Source: Marichromatium purpuratum 984 (GTDB lineage: Bacteria; Pseudomonadota; Gammaproteobacteria; Chromatiales; Chromatiaceae). From it: a stretch of DNA of 64,000 nt. Location of the stretch: positions 62,001 to 126,000 of the forward strand of contig NZ_CP007031.1 in NCBI RefSeq assembly GCF_000224005.2, written 5' to 3'. The notes beneath the pieces were generated by a model. It worked only from the letters and a program-made list of their open reading frames with translations, had not been told where the DNA came from and did no database searches. This document shows positions 1,294 to 25,695 of the stretch, piece by piece. Made by a program: the position numbers and the translations under genes. Each line of letters begins with the position of its first letter. The stretch's first letter is position 1.

Positions 1294-1849
1294 GGTAGTC
1301 GGCGCACTCCTCGCATGATGGTGCCCGGCACAGATAGACGCCCTCGCGTTCGCACAATTGCTTGTAGAGAAAGCGCTTCCATTTCATGTCGCCGGCGTTG
1401 GTCATGGCCAGACGCGGGAAGTTGCGACGCATCAGCGCGGTCAGCGCGCGGCGGTTCCACAGGCCGAGGTCCTGCCACAGATGATCGGTGGCCATGCAGC
1501 CGGCGGCAACCACCTCGGCCATCCACAGCTCCGAATGAGTGTGTCCGGCGCGCTGACTGCCGAGCAGTGCGACTAACTCCGTGCGCTCGTCCTCGCGCGC
1601 GGGATTGGGCGCCGCCCCGTCGAGGCTGGAGAGCACCTCGGGCGAGACTCCGGGGAAGTGATAGCCCATCAGCGCATTGAACGCCTCGGGCGCGAGCCCG
1701 AGCCAGGGGGGCAGGGCGCCGAGACCGCTGGCGCGGCTGGCGATCATGCAGGCGAAGGCATGGTCGTTGCCCGCGCCGACCGCCCGGGTCATCAACCGGA
1801 CGAAGATCCGTTGGATCTCGCGGGTGCGTTCGGGGCAGGGCGTGGCCAT
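1268..1849 (-). CDS. nifQ: NifQ, molybdenum donor for FeMo-cofactor synthesis
   Basis: NifQ is an iron-sulfur protein that supplies molybdenum to the NifEN/NifH step of FeMo-cofactor assembly. The 193-residue product ends in the family signature C-x4-C-x2-C-x5-C (C174, C179, C182, C188), which binds the Mo-Fe-S cluster. The frame extends 57 codons further upstream, but that part is Arg/Pro/His-rich shadow sequence. The ATG at 1849 is preceded on the minus strand by GGAGGCGAGACC and begins a normal NifQ N-terminus, so it was chosen. The gene follows the ferredoxin by 76 bases and overlaps draG. Confidence 0.95.
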   Translation of the reverse strand: MATPCPERTREIQRIFVRLMTRAVGAGNDHAFACMIASRASGLGALPPWLGLAPEAFNALMGYHFPGVSPEVLSSLDGAAPNPAREDERTELVALLGSQRAGHTHSELWMAEVVAAGCMATDHLWQDLGLWNRRALTALMRRNFPRLAMTNAGDMKWKRFLYKQLCEREGVYLCRAPSCEECADYHVCFGPED

Positions 1850-1925
1850 GGTCTCGCCTCCATCGGTCTCCTGGTGATGGTGCCGGGCCCGCGGGCGTCC
1901 CTGATATCGGACCCGGTGGTTGGGG

Positions 1926-2204
1926 TCAGCGGGCCTGGATGCGTGCGCGTGTCTGCTCGAGCAGGCCCGGCGGGATGCCGGTGAGCGAGCCCGGGGGATT
2001 GAGCGCGCTGCCGCCGGCATCGACGATCGCGCCCTCGATGGGGCAGATGCTCGCGCACTGTGGGTCGGCGTATTCGCCCGCGCACTCGCTGCAGGCGGCT
2101 GGATCGATACGGAAGTGCGGGATGGCGGGCTCGATCGCGGCGCTCGGACAGAGCGGCTCGCAGGCCCAGCAGTTGACGCATCCGGCGGTGATCTTCAGGG
2201 CCAT
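1926..2204 (-). CDS. 2[4Fe-4S] ferredoxin of the nifB-associated type
   Basis: A 92-residue electron carrier expected to hold two [4Fe-4S] clusters. The first set is C-x2-C-x2-C-x3-CP (CVNCWACEPLCP). The second has the longer spacing C-x2-C-x8-C-x3-CP that is characteristic of the FdxN/NifB-linked ferredoxins. The start MALKI is only 17 bases after the nifB stop, so the two genes are almost certainly co-transcribed. In diazotrophs this ferredoxin donates electrons to NifB or to nitrogenase assembly. The open frame upstream of 2204 is a shadow of the 3' end of nifB. Confidence 0.92.
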   Translation of the reverse strand: MALKITAGCVNCWACEPLCPSAAIEPAIPHFRIDPAACSECAGEYADPQCASICPIEGAIVDAGGSALNPPGSLTGIPPGLLEQTRARIQAR

Positions 2205-2221
2205 CTCGGGGATCTCCGTGG

Positions 2222-3715
2222 CTAGGCGCTCAGGGCGGCGCACTGGGGTTGATCGACGTTCAGGACACCCTGCTCGGCGAGTTCGCGATGGGCCGCGCGC
2301 AGTGCCTGCTCGATCGGCAGCATCGCCAGCTCGCCGTTGGGGCGGATGCCCGCCGTCTCGAGCCGCTCCCAGGGAGCGAGCCCGATGCGCGAGCACAGCA
2401 CCATGGCGCAGTCGGCGAGCGCGGCCAGTGCCGGGGCCAGGGCGTCGTCGTCCTCGTCGCAGTGCTCGGCGCCGTTGCAGTAGCGCGCGAGTGGGCGTTC
2501 GTCGAGCAGCCGTTCGCCCTGTTCGTCGACCTCGTAGACGAGGAAGCGCTCGGCATGACCGAAGTGCTGATCGACCAGTCGAGCGTCGCTGCTGGCCACC
2601 GCGATGCGTGCCGCGTGGGTGACGGGGCGGGGGCGGGTGGTGCTCAGCGTGGACAGCGGCACCAGCGCCGGGGCGACGCCCTGGCGCCGCTGCTCGATCG
2701 CCTCGCGCGCGGCGGTGCGTCGCGCCAGTGCGGCGGCGTCGTCGATCTCCATGGTCGCGATGCGCTCGAGCGTGAACTCGGCGCTGCGGTCCTCACCAAG
2801 CATGCCGACGGCGTCGGCGCGACACTGCTTGCAGTGACGCATGATCGCCATGTCGCCGGCGCACTCGGTCTGCAGCGCGCGCAGCTCGCTGGCGCGCGGT
2901 GCGCGCTGGCCCATCAGGCCGTAGAAGGTGCCGTGCTCGGGCTCGGCGATCAGCGGCATCAGGTTGTGGAGGAAGGCTCCCTTGGCCTTGACCGCGCGGC
3001 TGACCTCGGTGATGTGCTGGTCGTTGACCCCGGGGATCAGCACCGAGTTGACCTTGACCAGCATGCCGCGCTCGACCAGCCGCTCGAGCCCGAGCTGCTG
3101 CTGCTCGATGAGGATCTCGGCGCCCTTGCGACCGCGCACGCGGCGGTTGTTCCAGAACACCCAGGGGTAGATCTCGGCGCCGATGTCGGGGTCGAGACAG
3201 TTGATGGTGATGGTGACGTGCTCGATGTTGTAGCGACACAGGGTGTCGACCGCCTCGGGCAGCGCCAGGCCGTTGGTCGAGACACACAGCCTGAGGTCCG
3301 GGGTGCGCTCGGCGATCAGCCGGAAGGTTGCGAAGGTGCGCTCGGGGTTGGCCAGCGGATCGCCCGGACCGGCGATGCCGACCACCGAGAGCTGGGGGAT
3401 GTGGGCGGCCACCGCCGCCACCTTGTCCGCCGCCTGCTGCGGTTCGAGCAGCTCGGAGACCACGCCGGGCCGTGACTCGTTGGCACAGTCGTACTTGCGG
3501 TTGCAGTAGTGGCACTGGATGTTGCAGGCCGGCGCCACCGCCACGTGCATCCGTGCGTAGTGCTGATGGGCATCCTCCGAGAAACAGGGATGGTTACGCA
3601 CCCGCTCGCGGGTCGCGGCGGGGAGCCGGTCGAGCGCGCTCCCGCCACCGCAGCCCCCCGCAGCGCAACCCGAGGTGGGGGTCTTTCGATCGTGACCCGC
3701 TTGCTTCGACTCCAT
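2222..3715 (-). CDS. nifB: NifB, radical SAM FeMo-cofactor core (NifB-co) synthase
   Basis: NifB fuses two [4Fe-4S] units and inserts the central carbide to make NifB-co, the precursor of all nitrogenase cofactors. The 497-residue protein has the long gammaproteobacterial architecture. A Cys/Gly-rich N-terminus is followed by the radical SAM triad C-x3-C-x2-C at C64, C68 and C71 within VAPACNIQCHYCNRKYDC, then the radical SAM barrel to about residue 300. A C-terminal NifX/NafY-type carrier domain spans about 369-480 (start RIAVASSD, with FGHAERF). It is the first gene of the nifB-ferredoxin-nifQ-draG unit, with a sigma-54 promoter and two NifA sites upstream. Confidence 0.97.
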   Translation of the reverse strand: MESKQAGHDRKTPTSGCAAGGCGGGSALDRLPAATRERVRNHPCFSEDAHQHYARMHVAVAPACNIQCHYCNRKYDCANESRPGVVSELLEPQQAADKVAAVAAHIPQLSVVGIAGPGDPLANPERTFATFRLIAERTPDLRLCVSTNGLALPEAVDTLCRYNIEHVTITINCLDPDIGAEIYPWVFWNNRRVRGRKGAEILIEQQQLGLERLVERGMLVKVNSVLIPGVNDQHITEVSRAVKAKGAFLHNLMPLIAEPEHGTFYGLMGQRAPRASELRALQTECAGDMAIMRHCKQCRADAVGMLGEDRSAEFTLERIATMEIDDAAALARRTAAREAIEQRRQGVAPALVPLSTLSTTRPRPVTHAARIAVASSDARLVDQHFGHAERFLVYEVDEQGERLLDERPLARYCNGAEHCDEDDDALAPALAALADCAMVLCSRIGLAPWERLETAGIRPNGELAMLPIEQALRAAHRELAEQGVLNVDQPQCAALSA

Positions 3716-4529: not shown

Positions 4530-6356
4530 TTGTCAAGCAAGCAAATCGAGAAACTCCGCAATATCGCCATCATCGCCCATGTCGACCACGGCAAGACCAC
4601 CCTGGTCGATCAGCTGCTGCAGCAGTCGGGCACGCTCGGCGAGCGCTTCGGGCCGGTGGAGCGGGTGATGGACTCCAACGCGCTGGAGAAGGAGCGCGGC
4701 ATCACCATCCTCTCCAAGAACACCGCGATCCGCTGGAACGACTATCGCATCAACATCGTCGACACCCCCGGGCACGCCGACTTCGGCGGTGAGGTCGAGC
4801 GTGTGCTGTCGATGGTCGACTCGGTGCTGCTGCTCGTCGATGCCCGCGAGGGACCGATGCCGCAGACCCGCTTCGTCACCAGCAAGGCCTTCGCCCACGG
4901 TCTGCGTCCGATCGTGGTGGTCAACAAGATCGATCGTCCGGGCGCGCGTCCGGACTGGGTCATCGACCAGGTCTTCGATCTCTTCGACCGTCTCGGCGCA
5001 ACCGATGAGCAGCTCGATTTCCCCATCGTCTATGCCTCGGCGCTCAATGGCTATGCCGGACTCGAGGACGATGTGCGCGACGGCGACATGAGCCCGCTGT
5101 TCCAGGCCATCGTCGAGCACTGCCCGGCCCCCGAGGTCAAGCCCGAGGCGCCCTTCCAGATGCAGGTCTCGACCCTCGACTACAACGCCTTCGTCGGCGC
5201 CATTGCGGTCGGGCGCATTCGCCAGGGCAGCGTGCGCCCCAATCAGCAGGTGACCGTGGTCAAGCGCGACGGCACCCGGCAGAAGGTCAAGATCGGTCTG
5301 GTCTACGGCTATCTCGGGCTCGACCGTCACGAGGTCGACTCGGCCAGCGCCGGCGACATCGTCGCGCTCACCGGGATCGAGGCGCCGAACGTCTCCGATA
5401 CCCTCTGCGATCCCGATCATGTCGAGCCGATGACGCCGCTGACCGTCGACGAGCCGACCGTGACCATGACCTTCCAGGTCAACACCTCGCCCTTCGCCGG
5501 GCGCGAGGGCAAGTACCTGACCTCGCGCCAGCTCAAGGACCGGCTCCAGCGCGAGCTGATCCACAATGTCGCGCTGCGTGTCGAGGAAGGCAACGATCCG
5601 GAGAAGTTCCGCGTCTCCGGGCGTGGCGAGCTGCATCTCTCGATCCTGCTCGAGAACATGCGCCGCGAGGGCTACGAGCTGGCCGTCTCGCGCCCCGAGG
5701 TCATCTTCCGCGAGATCGACGGCGAGATCTGCGAGCCCTACGAGCAGCTCACCGTCGACGTCGACGAGGAGTGCCAGGGCGCGATCATGCAGGCGCTCGG
5801 CGAGCGTCGCGCCGAACTCAAGGACATGGTGCCGGACGGCAAGGGGCGGGTGCGGCTCGACTACGAGATCCCCTCGCGCGGCCTGATCGGTTTCCAGACC
5901 GAGTTCATGTCGCTGACCTCGGGCACCGGCCTCAAGTATCACGTCTTCGAGCGCTACCGTCCGGCCACCACCGGCGGCATCGCCGAGCGGCGCAACGGCG
6001 CCCTGATCTCCAACGCCACCGGCAAGGCGCTCGGCTACGCGCTGTTCAACCTCCAGGAGCGGGGTCGGATGCTGGTCTCGCCGGGCGACGAGATCTACGA
6101 GGGCCAGGTGGTCGGCATCCACTCGCGCGACAACGACCTCACCGTCAACCCGCTCAAGGCCAAGCAGCTGACCAACATCCGCGCCGCCGGTTCGGACGAG
6201 AACATCCTGCTGACCCCGCCGGTGAAGTTCACCCTGGAGCAGGCGCTGGAGTTCATCGAGGACGACGAGCTGGTCGAGATCACCCCCGACGCCATCCGCG
6301 TGCGCAAGCGTCACCTCACCGAGCAGGACCGCAAGCGCGCCAGCCGCGGTCTCTGA
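4530..6356 (+). CDS. typA: TypA/BipA ribosome-associated translational GTPase
   Basis: A ribosome-binding GTPase of the EF-G/LepA type that helps 50S assembly and translation under cold and other stress. The 608-residue protein is full length. G-domain motifs are AHVDHGKTT (residues 16-24), DTPGH and NKID; domains II, III and V and the BipA-specific C-terminus follow. The start is a TTG at 4530, preceded by ATAAGG. No ATG or GTG lies in frame between it and the conserved [12 protein letters not shown] that begins other family members, so TTG is the best choice. It stands alone, with a long leader that may carry regulation. Confidence 0.95.
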
Positions 6357-6386
6357 TCGGTTCGGGCGCGGGGCGGCTGGGCGGGC

Positions 6387-6941
6387 TCAGTCCCGTGGCA
6401 ACACGATGTTGACCAGCCGCCAGCGCAGTCCGTCGCGCTCGAGCACGCAGCGGAGTTCACGCCCGTCTTCGGTCGGCACCCAGACCGAGAAGGTGTCGAG
6501 GTCGTCGTAGACATAGCGGGCGTCGGCGAAGGGGCGGCGCTCGCCGCCGCCGTCGTCGGGCGCGTCCGCCTCTTCGACCGGGGCCGTCGGCAGCTCCGCG
6601 CCCGGCTCCGGGGTCTCGCCGGCCATGATCCTGGCCAGCCCCGCCGGGGTGACGAAAGTGTCCACCACCTTGTCGATCAGTTGCGTGGCCAGACCCACCA
6701 GCGCCAGCGCGAGCGGGTTGGACGTCTCGCCGTCGTCCTGGGCCTCTTCGAGCAGACGGACGTTGAGCTGGTCCTTGAGCCCGGCGCGTAGCCGTGGGAA
6801 GTCGACGTGCTGTTCGAGCATGACCGGGTCGCGCTCGACGAGACCGGTGCGGATCTGCGCCACGGTCAGGTAAGGGCCGGCGGCGACATAGCCGAGCCCG
6901 AGCAGCAGGGCGACGGCAAGTAGCAGGGGGAGGAGCTTCAT
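6387..6941 (-). CDS. DUF2939 family exported/anchored protein (copy 1)
   Basis: A 184-residue protein with an N-terminal hydrophobic segment (residues 4-22, a signal anchor or signal peptide). The rest matches the DUF2939 pattern: an early PYLTVAQIRTGLVERDPVMLEQHVDFPRLR-type region, a helical middle, an acidic linker and a C-terminal strand pair ending RDGLRWRLVNIVL. Function is unknown. A GTG immediately precedes the ATG at 6941; AAGGA sits 8 bases before the ATG, so the ATG was chosen. It is convergent with typA. A paralogue lies at 41890-42432. Confidence 0.7.
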   Translation of the reverse strand: MKLLPLLLAVALLLGLGYVAAGPYLTVAQIRTGLVERDPVMLEQHVDFPRLRAGLKDQLNVRLLEEAQDDGETSNPLALALVGLATQLIDKVVDTFVTPAGLARIMAGETPEPGAELPTAPVEEADAPDDGGGERRPFADARYVYDDLDTFSVWVPTEDGRELRCVLERDGLRWRLVNIVLPRD

Positions 6942-21764: not shown

Positions 21765-22044
21765 CCAGCTACCAGCTACCAGCTACCAGTCGCCAGCTAC
21801 CAGTTGCCAGCCGCCAGCCGCCAGCCGCGAGGGAGTTTGAACCGCAAAGACGCCAAGCACACAAAGTGGGTTTGATCGGGTGAGATCTCGGTGCCATCGT
21901 CGCTCCTGAATGGAGGGTGAAGGCTGGTCGCTCGAAAGGTTTCATCCCGCTGTCTTTATTGATCTTCTTTGTGTCCTTGGCGTCTTTGCGGTTCATGTCT
22001 CACTTTCGCCCATGACTCGCATCCCGCGCGTCTTTGCGGTTCAA
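21765..22044. repeat. composite repeat element 2: heptamer array and inverted 30-mer
   Basis: Nine degenerate heptamers of the form CCAGNNN (CTA, TCG, TTG, CCG) occupy 21765-21827. A 30-base arm at 21837-21866 begins TTGAACCGCAAAGACGCC and is matched in inverse orientation at 21967-21996, with 28 of 30 positions complementary. A partial third arm lies at 22029-22044. The arms are the same sequence family as those of the element at 8524-8787. Confidence 0.85.
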
Positions 22045-22087
22045 TGCCTCGATCGGTTTCGACGGGCGGTCCGGCGGTGTCGGTGAG

Positions 22088-24469
22088 ATGAAGCTGAGGC
22101 TCTATATCCTGTTGTTCCTGCTGGCCTTCGGGGTGATCCCGCTGATGCTGGCGGTGGCGATCAATCTGCCGCTGGTGCTCGATCGCACGGCGTTGTTCTA
22201 TCAGCGCGCCTATCTGCAGAACCTGCGCGCCGACTTCCGCGACCTCGACCAGCACCTGGCCAGTCGTCACGAGATGATCCGGTTGCTCGCGCGGCTGCCC
22301 GAGCCGGGGCTGATCCTCGGGCTCCGGGGCGAGCCCGGGCAGGTGGCGCTGGCGCGCGAGCGCTATACCCGCTGGGTCAACCAGATCCTCGTCGACCAGC
22401 GCGACATCATCCAGATCCTCTTCGTCGACGACAGCGGGGCGCTGCGCTTCCAGCTCGCGCGTGACCGACAGGATCAGGAGTGGCATGCCACCGAACGCCC
22501 GCCGTTGCTGCCCGAGCCGCGTTTCCTCGACACCGGGCTGTCGTTGCAGCCGGGGGCGGTGCTGGTCAGCCGCATCCGCATCGACCAGGAGGCCGGCGAG
22601 CGCGATCAGCGCCAGCTGATGACCCTGAGCCTGATCAGTCGGCTCGGTGACGAGGGCGGGGCGGTGGTGATGGCGATCGATGTCGGCGGGCTGGCGCAGT
22701 TCTATCGCGACACCCTGTGGGTCAACCACGACGGCAGCTATCTGCGTCCCGGCCAACCGGGTGGCGTCCTGGGCGAGGCCTTCGTCGACTTCTCCGGGCT
22801 GGAGGCCATCTTCACCGCGGGCAACCTGGCGCTGTGGAAGGGGCGTGCCGGACGCCAGCTGTTGTGGGTGCCGATGTTCCTCACCGAGGACGGCGCGCCG
22901 CTGTGGGTCGGGCGCGCGGTCGATCCTTCGCCGATCGATGCCTTCCGCGACGCGCTGATGGTGCGGGTGCTCTCGATCATGCTCGCGCTGGTGGTGGTGG
23001 TGATGGTGGTGGCGCGGCTGATCGCCAGGCGGCTCGAGCGCTTCGGCCAGTCGCTCACCCGCGGGCTGACCCAGGTGCTGCGCGAGGGGCGGGCGCTGCG
23101 CTTTGACTGGCGCGGCCCGCGCGAGATCCGCGCGCTCGGCGCCCAGCTCACCGCGCTGGCGCACACCCATGCCGAGCACCTGCGCGCCGAGCAGGCGCAT
23201 ACTCGCGAGCTGGAGCGCTCCAACCGCTACAAGTCGGAGTTTCTCGCCAACGTCAGTCACGAGCTGCGCACCCCGCTCAACTCGATCCTGCTGCTGTCGA
23301 AGATGCTCGCCGCCGAGAGCGGCGGGCTCGACCCGGCGCAGCGTCGGCAGGCTCAGGTGATCCACGCCGCCGGGCGCGACCTGCGGACGATGATCGACAA
23401 CATCCTCGACATCTCGCGGATCGAGGCCGGTCAGGTCGAACTCGACCCCGACTGGGTGGAGCTGCCCTCGCTGCTCGAGTCGCTGGTGGCGCTGATCGAG
23501 CCTCAGCTCGCCGACAAGCCGGTGCGGTTGAGTCTGGAGATCGACCCGCGCGCGCCGACCCTGATCCACTGCGATGCCGACAAGCTGCGCCAGATCCTCA
23601 AGAACTTCCTCAGCAACGCGCTCAAGTTCACCGAGCGCGGTCATATCCTGCTCGGCTGCGCGCCGAGCAACGACCCCGAGTTGCCGCTGGCGCTGAGCGT
23701 CGCCGACACCGGGATCGGGATCGCCGAGGACAAGCAGGGGCTGATCTTCGAGGCCTTCCAGCAGGCCGATGGCTCGACCCGGCGCCGTTATGGCGGCACC
23801 GGGCTGGGATTGTCGATCAGTCGCGAGCTGGCCGCGCTGCTCGGCGGGCGCATCAGTGTCGAGAGCGCGCCCGGGGCCGGGGCGTGCTTCACCCTGTTGC
23901 TGCCGCTCACGGCGCCGGGCGGTGCGCCCGATGCGTCGCCGGCGACCGAGGACACCCCCGCCACCACGGCAGATACCGCCGTCCCGGTCGCCGTGACGGA
24001 GGCGGCCCCGCCCGAGGACGGGGGCGAGTGGGTGCTGGTGATCGCGCGCGAGGTGCCGTTGTTGGTGCGACTGGCGGCGGCGCTGGGGCGGCGCGGGCTG
24101 CGGGTGCAGACCGCCGCCGATCTCGAGGAGGCACGCGAGACCCTGGCCGAGGAGGGCGAGGGCTGCATGCTGATGCTGCTGGCGCTCACCGGGGCGCCCG
24201 GAGAGTGCTGTGATAGCATCCACGGCCTGATCGCGCAGTGCCGGGGCGCCGCGCCCGCGGTGGTGCTGCTGGGCGAGGCCGAGGCGCCGTCGCCCGAGCC
24301 CTGTCGCGAGGCCGGTGTGCTCGCGCTGCTCGCCAAGTCCGTCGATGACGATCGGCTCGATCGCTTGCTCGCCGAGGTGCGTGGCGCGCGGGCCGCGTCG
24401 GCGCGGGATGCACACCAGACCGGCCGTGCCGCCACGGGATCGGGCGGCGCGGCGCGAGGAGAGCGATGA
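22088..24469 (+). CDS. membrane hybrid histidine kinase with degenerate receiver
   Basis: A 793-residue sensor kinase. A first membrane helix (about 5-25) and a second (about 293-315) enclose a 265-residue periplasmic sensor, probably Cache-like. A HAMP-like linker is followed by HisKA with [14 protein letters not shown] (phospho-acceptor H391) and HATPase_c with the N box [22 protein letters not shown] and [12 protein letters not shown]. From about 640 a receiver-like domain follows, but the acidic pair and the phospho-acceptor Asp are replaced (VIAREV; MLLALTG) while the Lys (LLAKSVD) remains, so it cannot work as a normal receiver. The gene overlaps the REC-PAS gene by ATGA. The longer open frame upstream enters the repeat and was rejected. 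Confidence 0.9.
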
Positions 24470-25350
24470 TGAGCCACCATGCCGGATTCAAGCTGCTGAT
24501 CGTCGACGATCACGCACACAACCTCTTCACCCTGCGCACCCTGATCGAGCGTCATCTCGACTGTGCGGTGCTCGAGGCCAGCTCCGGGCAGCAGGCGCTC
24601 GATCTCACCCACGAGCACGCCGACATCGATCTGATCATCCTCGACGTGCAGATGCCGGAGATGGACGGCTTCGAGACCGCCTCGATGCTCAAGCTGCGCA
24701 AGCGCACCCGCGACATCCCGATCATCTTCCTCACCGCCGCCTTCAAGTCCGAGGCCTTTCAGCAGCGGGGCTTCGCCGTCGGTGCGGTCGACTATCTGCT
24801 CAAGCCGATCGACGATGACCTGCTGATCAACAAGATCGGTACCTATTTCCGCCTGATCGAGAAGGAGCGCGGGCTCAACCGCCAGCTCGAGCAGCAGGTC
24901 GCCGAGCGCACCCGCGAGCTGGCCGAGGCGCGCCAGTACCTGGAGAACATCCTCACCTACATGGGCGAGGCGCTGCTGGTGCTCGCCCCCGACGGCACCA
25001 TCAAGTTCACCAACCCGGCCGCACGCCACATGCTCGGTTACGAGGAGACGGCGCTGCGCGGGATGGCGATCGGGGACGTCTTCGAGGAGGAGGCCGACGA
25101 GCAGGCCGGGGCCTTCATGGGCACCTGGCTCGAGGCGCTGATCCGCACCGGCGCGCTCAGCAAGATCGAGGCGCGTTTCATCGCCAGCGACGGTCGTCGG
25201 GTGCCGATCCTGTTCTCGCGCACCGCAGTGAGGAATACCCGGGGCGAGATCAGCGATATCATCTGTATTGCCAAGAACATGAGCGGCTATGTCCGGGTCG
25301 ATCCGGACGCGCCCGCACCCGCGCCGGGGCAGGCGCGGCAACCATCCTGA
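24466..25350 (+). CDS. response regulator with REC and PAS domains
   Basis: A 294-residue cytoplasmic protein. Residues 8-125 form a complete receiver: the acidic pair D14/D15, phospho-acceptor D60 (LIILDVQMPEMDGF) and K113 (YLLKPID). A coiled coil (about 128-155, EKERGLNRQLEQQVAERTRELAEA) leads to a PAS domain (about 156-275, LVLAPDGTIKFTNPAARHMLGYEE). There is no output domain such as DNA-binding, GGDEF or kinase, so it must act through a partner. The upstream kinase is the obvious phosphate donor. Confidence 0.88.
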   Translation: MMSHHAGFKLLIVDDHAHNLFTLRTLIERHLDCAVLEASSGQQALDLTHEHADIDLIILDVQMPEMDGFETASMLKLRKRTRDIPIIFLTAAFKSEAFQQRGFAVGAVDYLLKPIDDDLLINKIGTYFRLIEKERGLNRQLEQQVAERTRELAEARQYLENILTYMGEALLVLAPDGTIKFTNPAARHMLGYEETALRGMAIGDVFEEEADEQAGAFMGTWLEALIRTGALSKIEARFIASDGRRVPILFSRTAVRNTRGEISDIICIAKNMSGYVRVDPDAPAPAPGQARQPS

Positions 25351-25362
25351 GGAGGATGCACG

Positions 25363-25695
25363 ATGACCGATCCGGTTTCGCCCACAGGCCCCGGTGACGA
25401 GGAAGATGCCACCCTCACCGCCAACGCACTCAAGGCGATGGCCCATCCGCTGCGCTGGAAGATCCTCTGCTCGCTCGGCGGGCGCGAGCTCTCGGTCGGC
25501 GAGATCGTCGAGCGCGTCGGCACCTCACAGAGCAACATCTCGCAGCATCTCGAACAGCTGCGCAACAAGAACATCGTGGTCGCCCGCAAGGAGGCCAACC
25601 GGATCTATTACCGGATCCGCAACACCCAGCTGCTCGAGCTGATCGGCATCATGCGCGAGGTGTTGTGTCCGGCCAATCTCGACGACCGGCCCTAG
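25363..25695 (+). CDS. ArsR-family repressor with SqrR/BigR-type cysteine pair
   Basis: A 110-residue winged-helix repressor, 12 bases after the REC-PAS gene and probably in the same operon. The HTH core is ELSVGEIVERVGTSQSNISQHLEQLRNKNIV followed by the wing ARKEANRIYYRI. It lacks the CVCD-type metal site of ArsR/SmtB. It has just two cysteines, C36 in the second helix (ILCSL) and C102 in the last helix (EVLCPANL). They are 66 residues apart, the spacing I recall for SqrR (C41/C107) and BigR (C42/C108), which sense persulfides through a disulfide or tetrasulfide bridge. A persulfide-responsive role is inferred from this. Confidence 0.85.
   Translation: MTDPVSPTGPGDEEDATLTANALKAMAHPLRWKILCSLGGRELSVGEIVERVGTSQSNISQHLEQLRNKNIVVARKEANRIYYRIRNTQLLELIGIMREVLCPANLDDRP

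Follow-up and report, generated by a model that had tools for sequence, protein, structure and literature searches.

A candidate persulfide-sensing ArsR regulator encoded with a histidine kinase and a REC-PAS protein in gammaproteobacterial sulfur oxidisers

Marichromatium purpuratum 984 encodes, within the 64,000-nucleotide stretch of DNA analysed here (the window), a three-gene module composed of a membrane histidine kinase, a REC-PAS protein and an ArsR-type regulator (ArsR1). We propose that ArsR1 is the DNA-binding output of this three-gene relay in gammaproteobacterial sulfur oxidisers and also a sulfane-sulfur switch, a proposal that we regard as evenly poised between right and wrong. 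To our knowledge, little is understood of how sulfur genes are switched in purple sulfur bacteria and in sulfur-oxidising symbionts. SoxR and sHdrR, the persulfide repressors known to act on sulfur oxidation, have been worked out in other groups, and a survey set the Chromatiaceae aside as an exception, their sox genes not being clustered (PMC10451225). The module is near-universal in the window's family and occurs across further lineages of sulfur oxidisers, which makes it a concrete candidate regulator. It is absent from the published descriptions that we found in a search of the open-access literature, subscription papers lying mostly outside that search.

ArsR1 and its cysteine pair

ArsR1 is a winged-helix protein of 110 amino acids, encoded on the plus strand at 25363..25695 (assigned by translation, Pfam and NCBIfam); an earlier note, made from the DNA alone, had the coordinates, strand and length right. 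The gene runs from an ATG at 25363, preceded by a Shine-Dalgarno-like GAGGAGG, to a stop ending at 25695. The Pfam model HTH_5 (47.9 bits against a cut-off of 22) places the product in the ArsR/SmtB family, and the NCBIfam model NF033788 matches it at 86.6 bits (cut-off 55). The only cysteines are Cys36 (codon 25468..25470, plus strand) and Cys102 (codon 25666..25668, plus strand). They lie, as the same note had read them, in helix 2 and in the last helix: the predicted model has C36 in α2 (residues 29–38) and C102 in α5 (residues 88–106), the pair of positions that characterises the persulfide-sensor cluster of ArsR proteins. Both cysteines, and the 66-residue step between them (C-66-C), are kept in all 74 distinct ArsR1 orthologues, 68 of which have no further cysteine. 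The orthologues differ by up to 38%, yet the pair is strictly kept, which argues that the cysteines are functional and not there by chance. Two further features, W32, which precedes C36 by one helical turn, and an NL motif just after C102, are invariant in ArsR1 and confined to it in a 26-sequence alignment. There is no CxC in α3 and no His/Asp metal site in the α5 sequence.

The predicted model fits the HlyU, SqrR and YgaV chains at about 1.2–1.7 Å over about 80 columns, the tetrasulfide state of SqrR (6o8n) being among the chains fitted; the best PDB match by sequence is NolR. ArsR1 aligns without gaps across both cysteines to the HlyU and BigR chains. The spacing had been taken as that of SqrR and BigR; both do have 66 residues, but the match is not exclusive, since the chain sequences give 66 also for HlyU, an activator, and 67 for YgaV. 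The spacing is thus a mark of the entire persulfide-sensor cluster, activator included, and not of SqrR and BigR specifically.

Family placement

In a maximum-likelihood tree (99 columns, LG+C20), the ArsR1 orthologues form one clade (support 97/92) that is sister to a second group, ArsR2 (99/99). With metal sensors represented by SmtB, NmtR and CzrA only, and with long reference branches, ArsR1 and ArsR2 fall together with SqrR, BigR, YgaV, HlyU and NolR and are split from the metal sensors at 100/97; the branching order inside the sensor side is unresolved. ArsR1 belongs to a clade of its own next to the rhodanese-linked gammaproteobacterial ArsR proteins, and is neither BigR, whose curated equivalog model NF040642 it matches at 72.6 bits (below the cut-off of 155), nor SqrR. 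The phylogeny called for by the earlier note came out as predicted with respect to metal sensors, and its reading of ArsR1 as a persulfide sensor gains from the side of the tree, the unbroken conservation of the cysteines, the lack of metal-site cysteines and the sulfur-oxidising hosts.

In the characterised persulfide sensors of SSN cluster 4, a polysulfide bridge between the two cysteines ends DNA binding (PMC10509353, PMC10451225). As the pair is bridged by sulfane sulfur in these relatives, ArsR1 probably answers to cytoplasmic sulfur; taken alone, persulfide or polysulfide sensing by ArsR1 is, by this analogy, fairly likely. No sqr, sox, shdr, pdo or rhodanese gene adjoins the window copy, whose neighbours are the kinase, REC-PAS and variable genes.

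The ArsR2 paralogue of the same genome (G000:C1:3742550-3742825, locus L002) has the same C-66-C and is about 60% identical to ArsR1. It differs from ArsR1 in that it adjoins a rhodanese gene, lacks W32 and the C-terminal NL motif, has no REC-PAS partner and is much more widely distributed in the class: of the 369 class genomes, 180 contain a match (E <= 1e-22), for the most part at around 60% identity and with no REC-PAS. All ArsR2 paralogues read keep C-66-C, and ArsR2 is a further uncharacterised persulfide-sensor candidate, widespread in the class. Long open frames around ArsR2 in three genomes (G265, G230 and G426), considered as fusions, proved to be GC-rich read-through only. The recognition-helix core GTSQSNISQHL is common to ArsR1 and ArsR2 in the window genome and in the copies read. 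By analogy with SoxR and sHdrR, which share operators in Hyphomicrobium (PMC10451225), the operators of ArsR1 and ArsR2 may thus be common to both.

Organisation of the kinase/REC-PAS/ArsR module

The order kinase, REC-PAS, ArsR1 is found in the fetched loci of the window's family. In the window, the REC-PAS stop at 25350 and the ArsR1 start at 25363 leave a gap of 12 bp. The earlier note had put ArsR1 immediately behind a kinase and a REC-PAS protein; this was the more important half of its observation, and the link with two-component signalling proves much stronger than could be known from the sequence alone. Of 126 loci, 124 have ArsR immediately after REC-PAS; the remaining two run out at a contig end, 1 and 145 bases beyond REC-PAS, so that the pair is split in none of the 124 testable loci. 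In one locus (L137) the two genes overlap. A kinase gene lies upstream in 117 of the 126. Since REC-PAS and ArsR stay together also where no kinase is adjacent (L048, L091 and L114), these two form the core of the module. The same association holds in a sample of 369 genomes of the class: 26 have a REC-PAS orthologue (E < 1e-100), with an ArsR orthologue immediately downstream of it on the same strand in 26/26, and the reverse is also true, ArsR matches at E < 1e-36 accompanying REC-PAS. Of the three proteins, ArsR varies least: its median identity to the window protein is 83.5%, against 72.2% for REC-PAS and 48.7% for the kinase. The gene that follows in the window, speE (spermidine synthase), was considered as a further partner and rejected, being present in only 20 fetched loci, a minority.

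The REC-PAS protein (24466..25350, plus strand) has 294 residues. Its receiver site (D14, D15, D60, T90 and K113) is complete in 43/43 sequences, and Pfam finds a REC and a PAS domain and no DNA-binding domain; it is a phosphorylatable receiver without a DNA-binding output. REC-PAS lacks such a domain and its inseparable neighbour carries one, so that ArsR1 is most simply read as the output. A cysteine of the PAS domain, Cys267, is invariant (43/43) and could be a second thiol sensor.

The kinase (22088..24469, plus strand) is assigned, from Pfam, homologues and the predicted model, a periplasmic double-Cache-like sensor, HisKA and HATPase domains and a degenerate C-terminal receiver. Its likely start is the ATG at 22088, where homologues have their first Met, rather than the TTG at 22034 of the mechanical frame. 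In the predicted model, two long helices, read as membrane-spanning, flank a high-confidence periplasmic domain with PDB fold matches to the dCache sensors of kinases and chemoreceptors. Although degenerate in the window kinase, the C-terminal receiver retains a recognisable phosphorylation site in about a quarter of homologues, by a crude pattern count. Several GTCTTTGCGGTTCA-type dispersed repeat copies, in both orientations, lie within 21836-22045 of the window, before the kinase gene.

Two further observations concern the surroundings of the module. A bcp/PrxQ-type peroxiredoxin (thiol peroxidase) gene lies upstream of the kinase on the same strand in 53 of the 108 loci with enough sequence (for example L040, L098 and L102) and is absent from that place in the window. 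In one locus (L038, genome G023), the genes for the kinase and for REC-PAS are both interrupted by a transposon-like element roughly 1.7 kb long, present in two near-identical copies (1709-3429 and 4728-6466) with a transposase-like frame on the minus strand; the ArsR gene is intact, which makes this locus a natural knock-out of the relay.

Distribution of the module and sulfur oxidation

Nearly all of the 146 genomes of the window's family have an ArsR1 orthologue, at 75-99% identity, and in a phylum-wide sample of 299 genomes the module is found in the window genome alone. The module is carried by Marichromatium, Allochromatium, Thiocapsa, Lamprocystis, Chromatium, Thiocystis, Thiorhodococcus, Thiospirillum, Halochromatium, Thiohalocapsa, Imhoffiella, Sedimenticola, Thiohalobacter, Thiodiazotropha, Thiosymbion and the symbionts of Lamellibrachia and Solemya, and by many gammaproteobacterial MAGs. 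The named carriers are overwhelmingly sulfur oxidisers (purple sulfur bacteria, Sedimenticola and symbionts of invertebrates). No module member was found in viral contigs.

In the class sample, dsrA is present in 23 of the 26 genomes with the module and in 94 of the 343 others (Fisher p 7e-10, uncorrected for kinship); 94 of the 117 genomes with dsrA have no module, and the link between module and dsrA is partly one of shared ancestry. The window genome has both dsrA and soxB. Across a 38-genome sample of the family, the module occurs with dsrA, with soxB or with both, and thus tracks sulfur oxidation and not one pathway. Two genomes of this sample (G017 and G033) have dsrA and no module; in G025, an incomplete genome that carries the module, neither dsrA nor soxB was found.

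Search for operators and target genes

Operators and targets were sought upstream of the kinase gene, ArsR2 and dsrA, and none was found there. Dyad counts gave no convincing palindrome, either in the 100 loci (84 after removal of redundancy) examined ahead of the kinase gene or in the 16 examined upstream of ArsR2. A guessed CzrA-like site, TGAAN6TTCA, has 6 genome matches (control, 2), and none of the three inspected lies beside a recognisable sulfur gene. A box, (T/C)CCC-N(2-9)-GTGGA(A/G)T, precedes dsrA by 130-240 bp in many relatives (L191, L197-L201, L203, L204, L206 and L213) and is found at G000:C1:2471338-2471356 (minus strand, locus L245) in the window genome; it has no tie to ArsR1. 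Its 19-base form has a single match in the genome at 0-2 mismatches, before dsrA. As an ArsR site the box was rejected, since this genome has it only at dsrA and the region ahead of the kinase gene has none; it is possibly an activator site of the dsr operon.

A two-input model and its alternatives

Adjacency of REC-PAS and ArsR is a sign of shared selection, not of contact. Functional coupling of the two is quite likely, while direct contact between them is a weaker proposition that we lean slightly against. The model that we favour runs as follows. The double-Cache domain of the membrane kinase would read a periplasmic ligand, and the kinase would phosphorylate REC-PAS at D60. REC-PAS would then act on ArsR1, the most probable route being direct contact via its PAS domain. 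In an independent step, sulfane sulfur in the cytoplasm would link C36 to C102 by a polysulfide bridge and take ArsR1 off DNA, so that one operator would integrate the outside signal and the internal sulfur status. In its strict form, in which phosphorylated REC-PAS binds ArsR1 and changes its affinity for DNA while sulfane sulfur acts through C36–C102, the module would be a two-input gate for the energy metabolism of sulfur-oxidising bacteria and symbionts; we put this form forward tentatively, expecting it to fail somewhat sooner than to hold. Phosphotransfer, the REC-PAS–ArsR contact, persulfide release, action as a repressor rather than an activator, and the target genes are all steps that we infer. 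If REC-PAS does control ArsR1, kinase relays and cysteine persulfidation would be joined in one output; if the whole model is true, a single switch would be fed by an outside signal and by internal sulfur.

ArsR regulators frequently repress the operon that encodes them. ArsR1 could accordingly be a persulfide-released repressor of the kinase/REC-PAS operon; sulfane sulfur would then determine how much of the relay is made, and REC-PAS would act elsewhere, for example on another kinase or a protein target, without contact with ArsR1. Tight linkage and short gaps, such as the 12 bp in the window, suit autoregulation, and REC-PAS proteins without an output domain can be phosphate sinks or adaptors. 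However, ArsR stays with REC-PAS where the kinase is not adjacent, the 100 loci examined yield no conserved operator upstream of the kinase gene, and ArsR is the last gene of the module, often with a gap of its own. We consider this reading unlikely, though a serious competitor.

The bcp/PrxQ-type gene that precedes the kinase in half of the loci counts against the two-input model, as it fits an oxidant signal equally well. Together with the invariant cysteine of REC-PAS, it raises the possibility that ArsR1 uses the same two cysteines to sense oxidants (peroxide or general thiol stress) and not sulfane sulfur. This is improbable: the characterised proteins that carry this pair are persulfide-responsive, and HlyU is unreactive towards H2O2 (PMC10509353); the window locus has no bcp, and the named carriers are overwhelmingly sulfur oxidisers. 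More improbable still, the cysteines could be structural relics in a regulator that has no small-molecule inducer and is controlled by REC-PAS only. Such a regulator would be NolR-like, NolR being the top PDB match and lacking the two cysteines. Both cysteines, however, are invariant in the 74 orthologues and in every ArsR2 read, although much of the surface varies. An SmtB/ArsR-type sensor of metals or metalloids, which the match to the generic metalloregulator model NF033788 would suggest if that model did not span the whole family, is close to refuted by the missing α3 and α5 metal sites and by the split from SmtB, NmtR and CzrA.

Comparison with known systems

ArsR1 shares its fold and its α2 and α5 cysteines with SqrR, BigR, YgaV, HlyU, SoxR and sHdrR (SSN cluster 4; PMC10509353), its ungapped spacing of 66 with SqrR, BigR and HlyU, and its occurrence in sulfur oxidisers with SoxR and sHdrR. 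It differs from all of them in forming a separate, well-supported clade with an obligate REC-PAS neighbour. NolR of Sinorhizobium resembles ArsR1 in fold and is closest to it in sequence among PDB entries, but has no sensing cysteines and an unrelated neighbourhood.

On the side of the relay, the nearest likeness is to systems of the PhyR/NepR type, in which a REC protein has no DNA-binding output. There, a receiver protein acts through a protein partner, as proposed here for REC-PAS; in the window module, the candidate partner is not an anti-sigma factor but a DNA-binding ArsR protein with a putative sulfur switch of its own.
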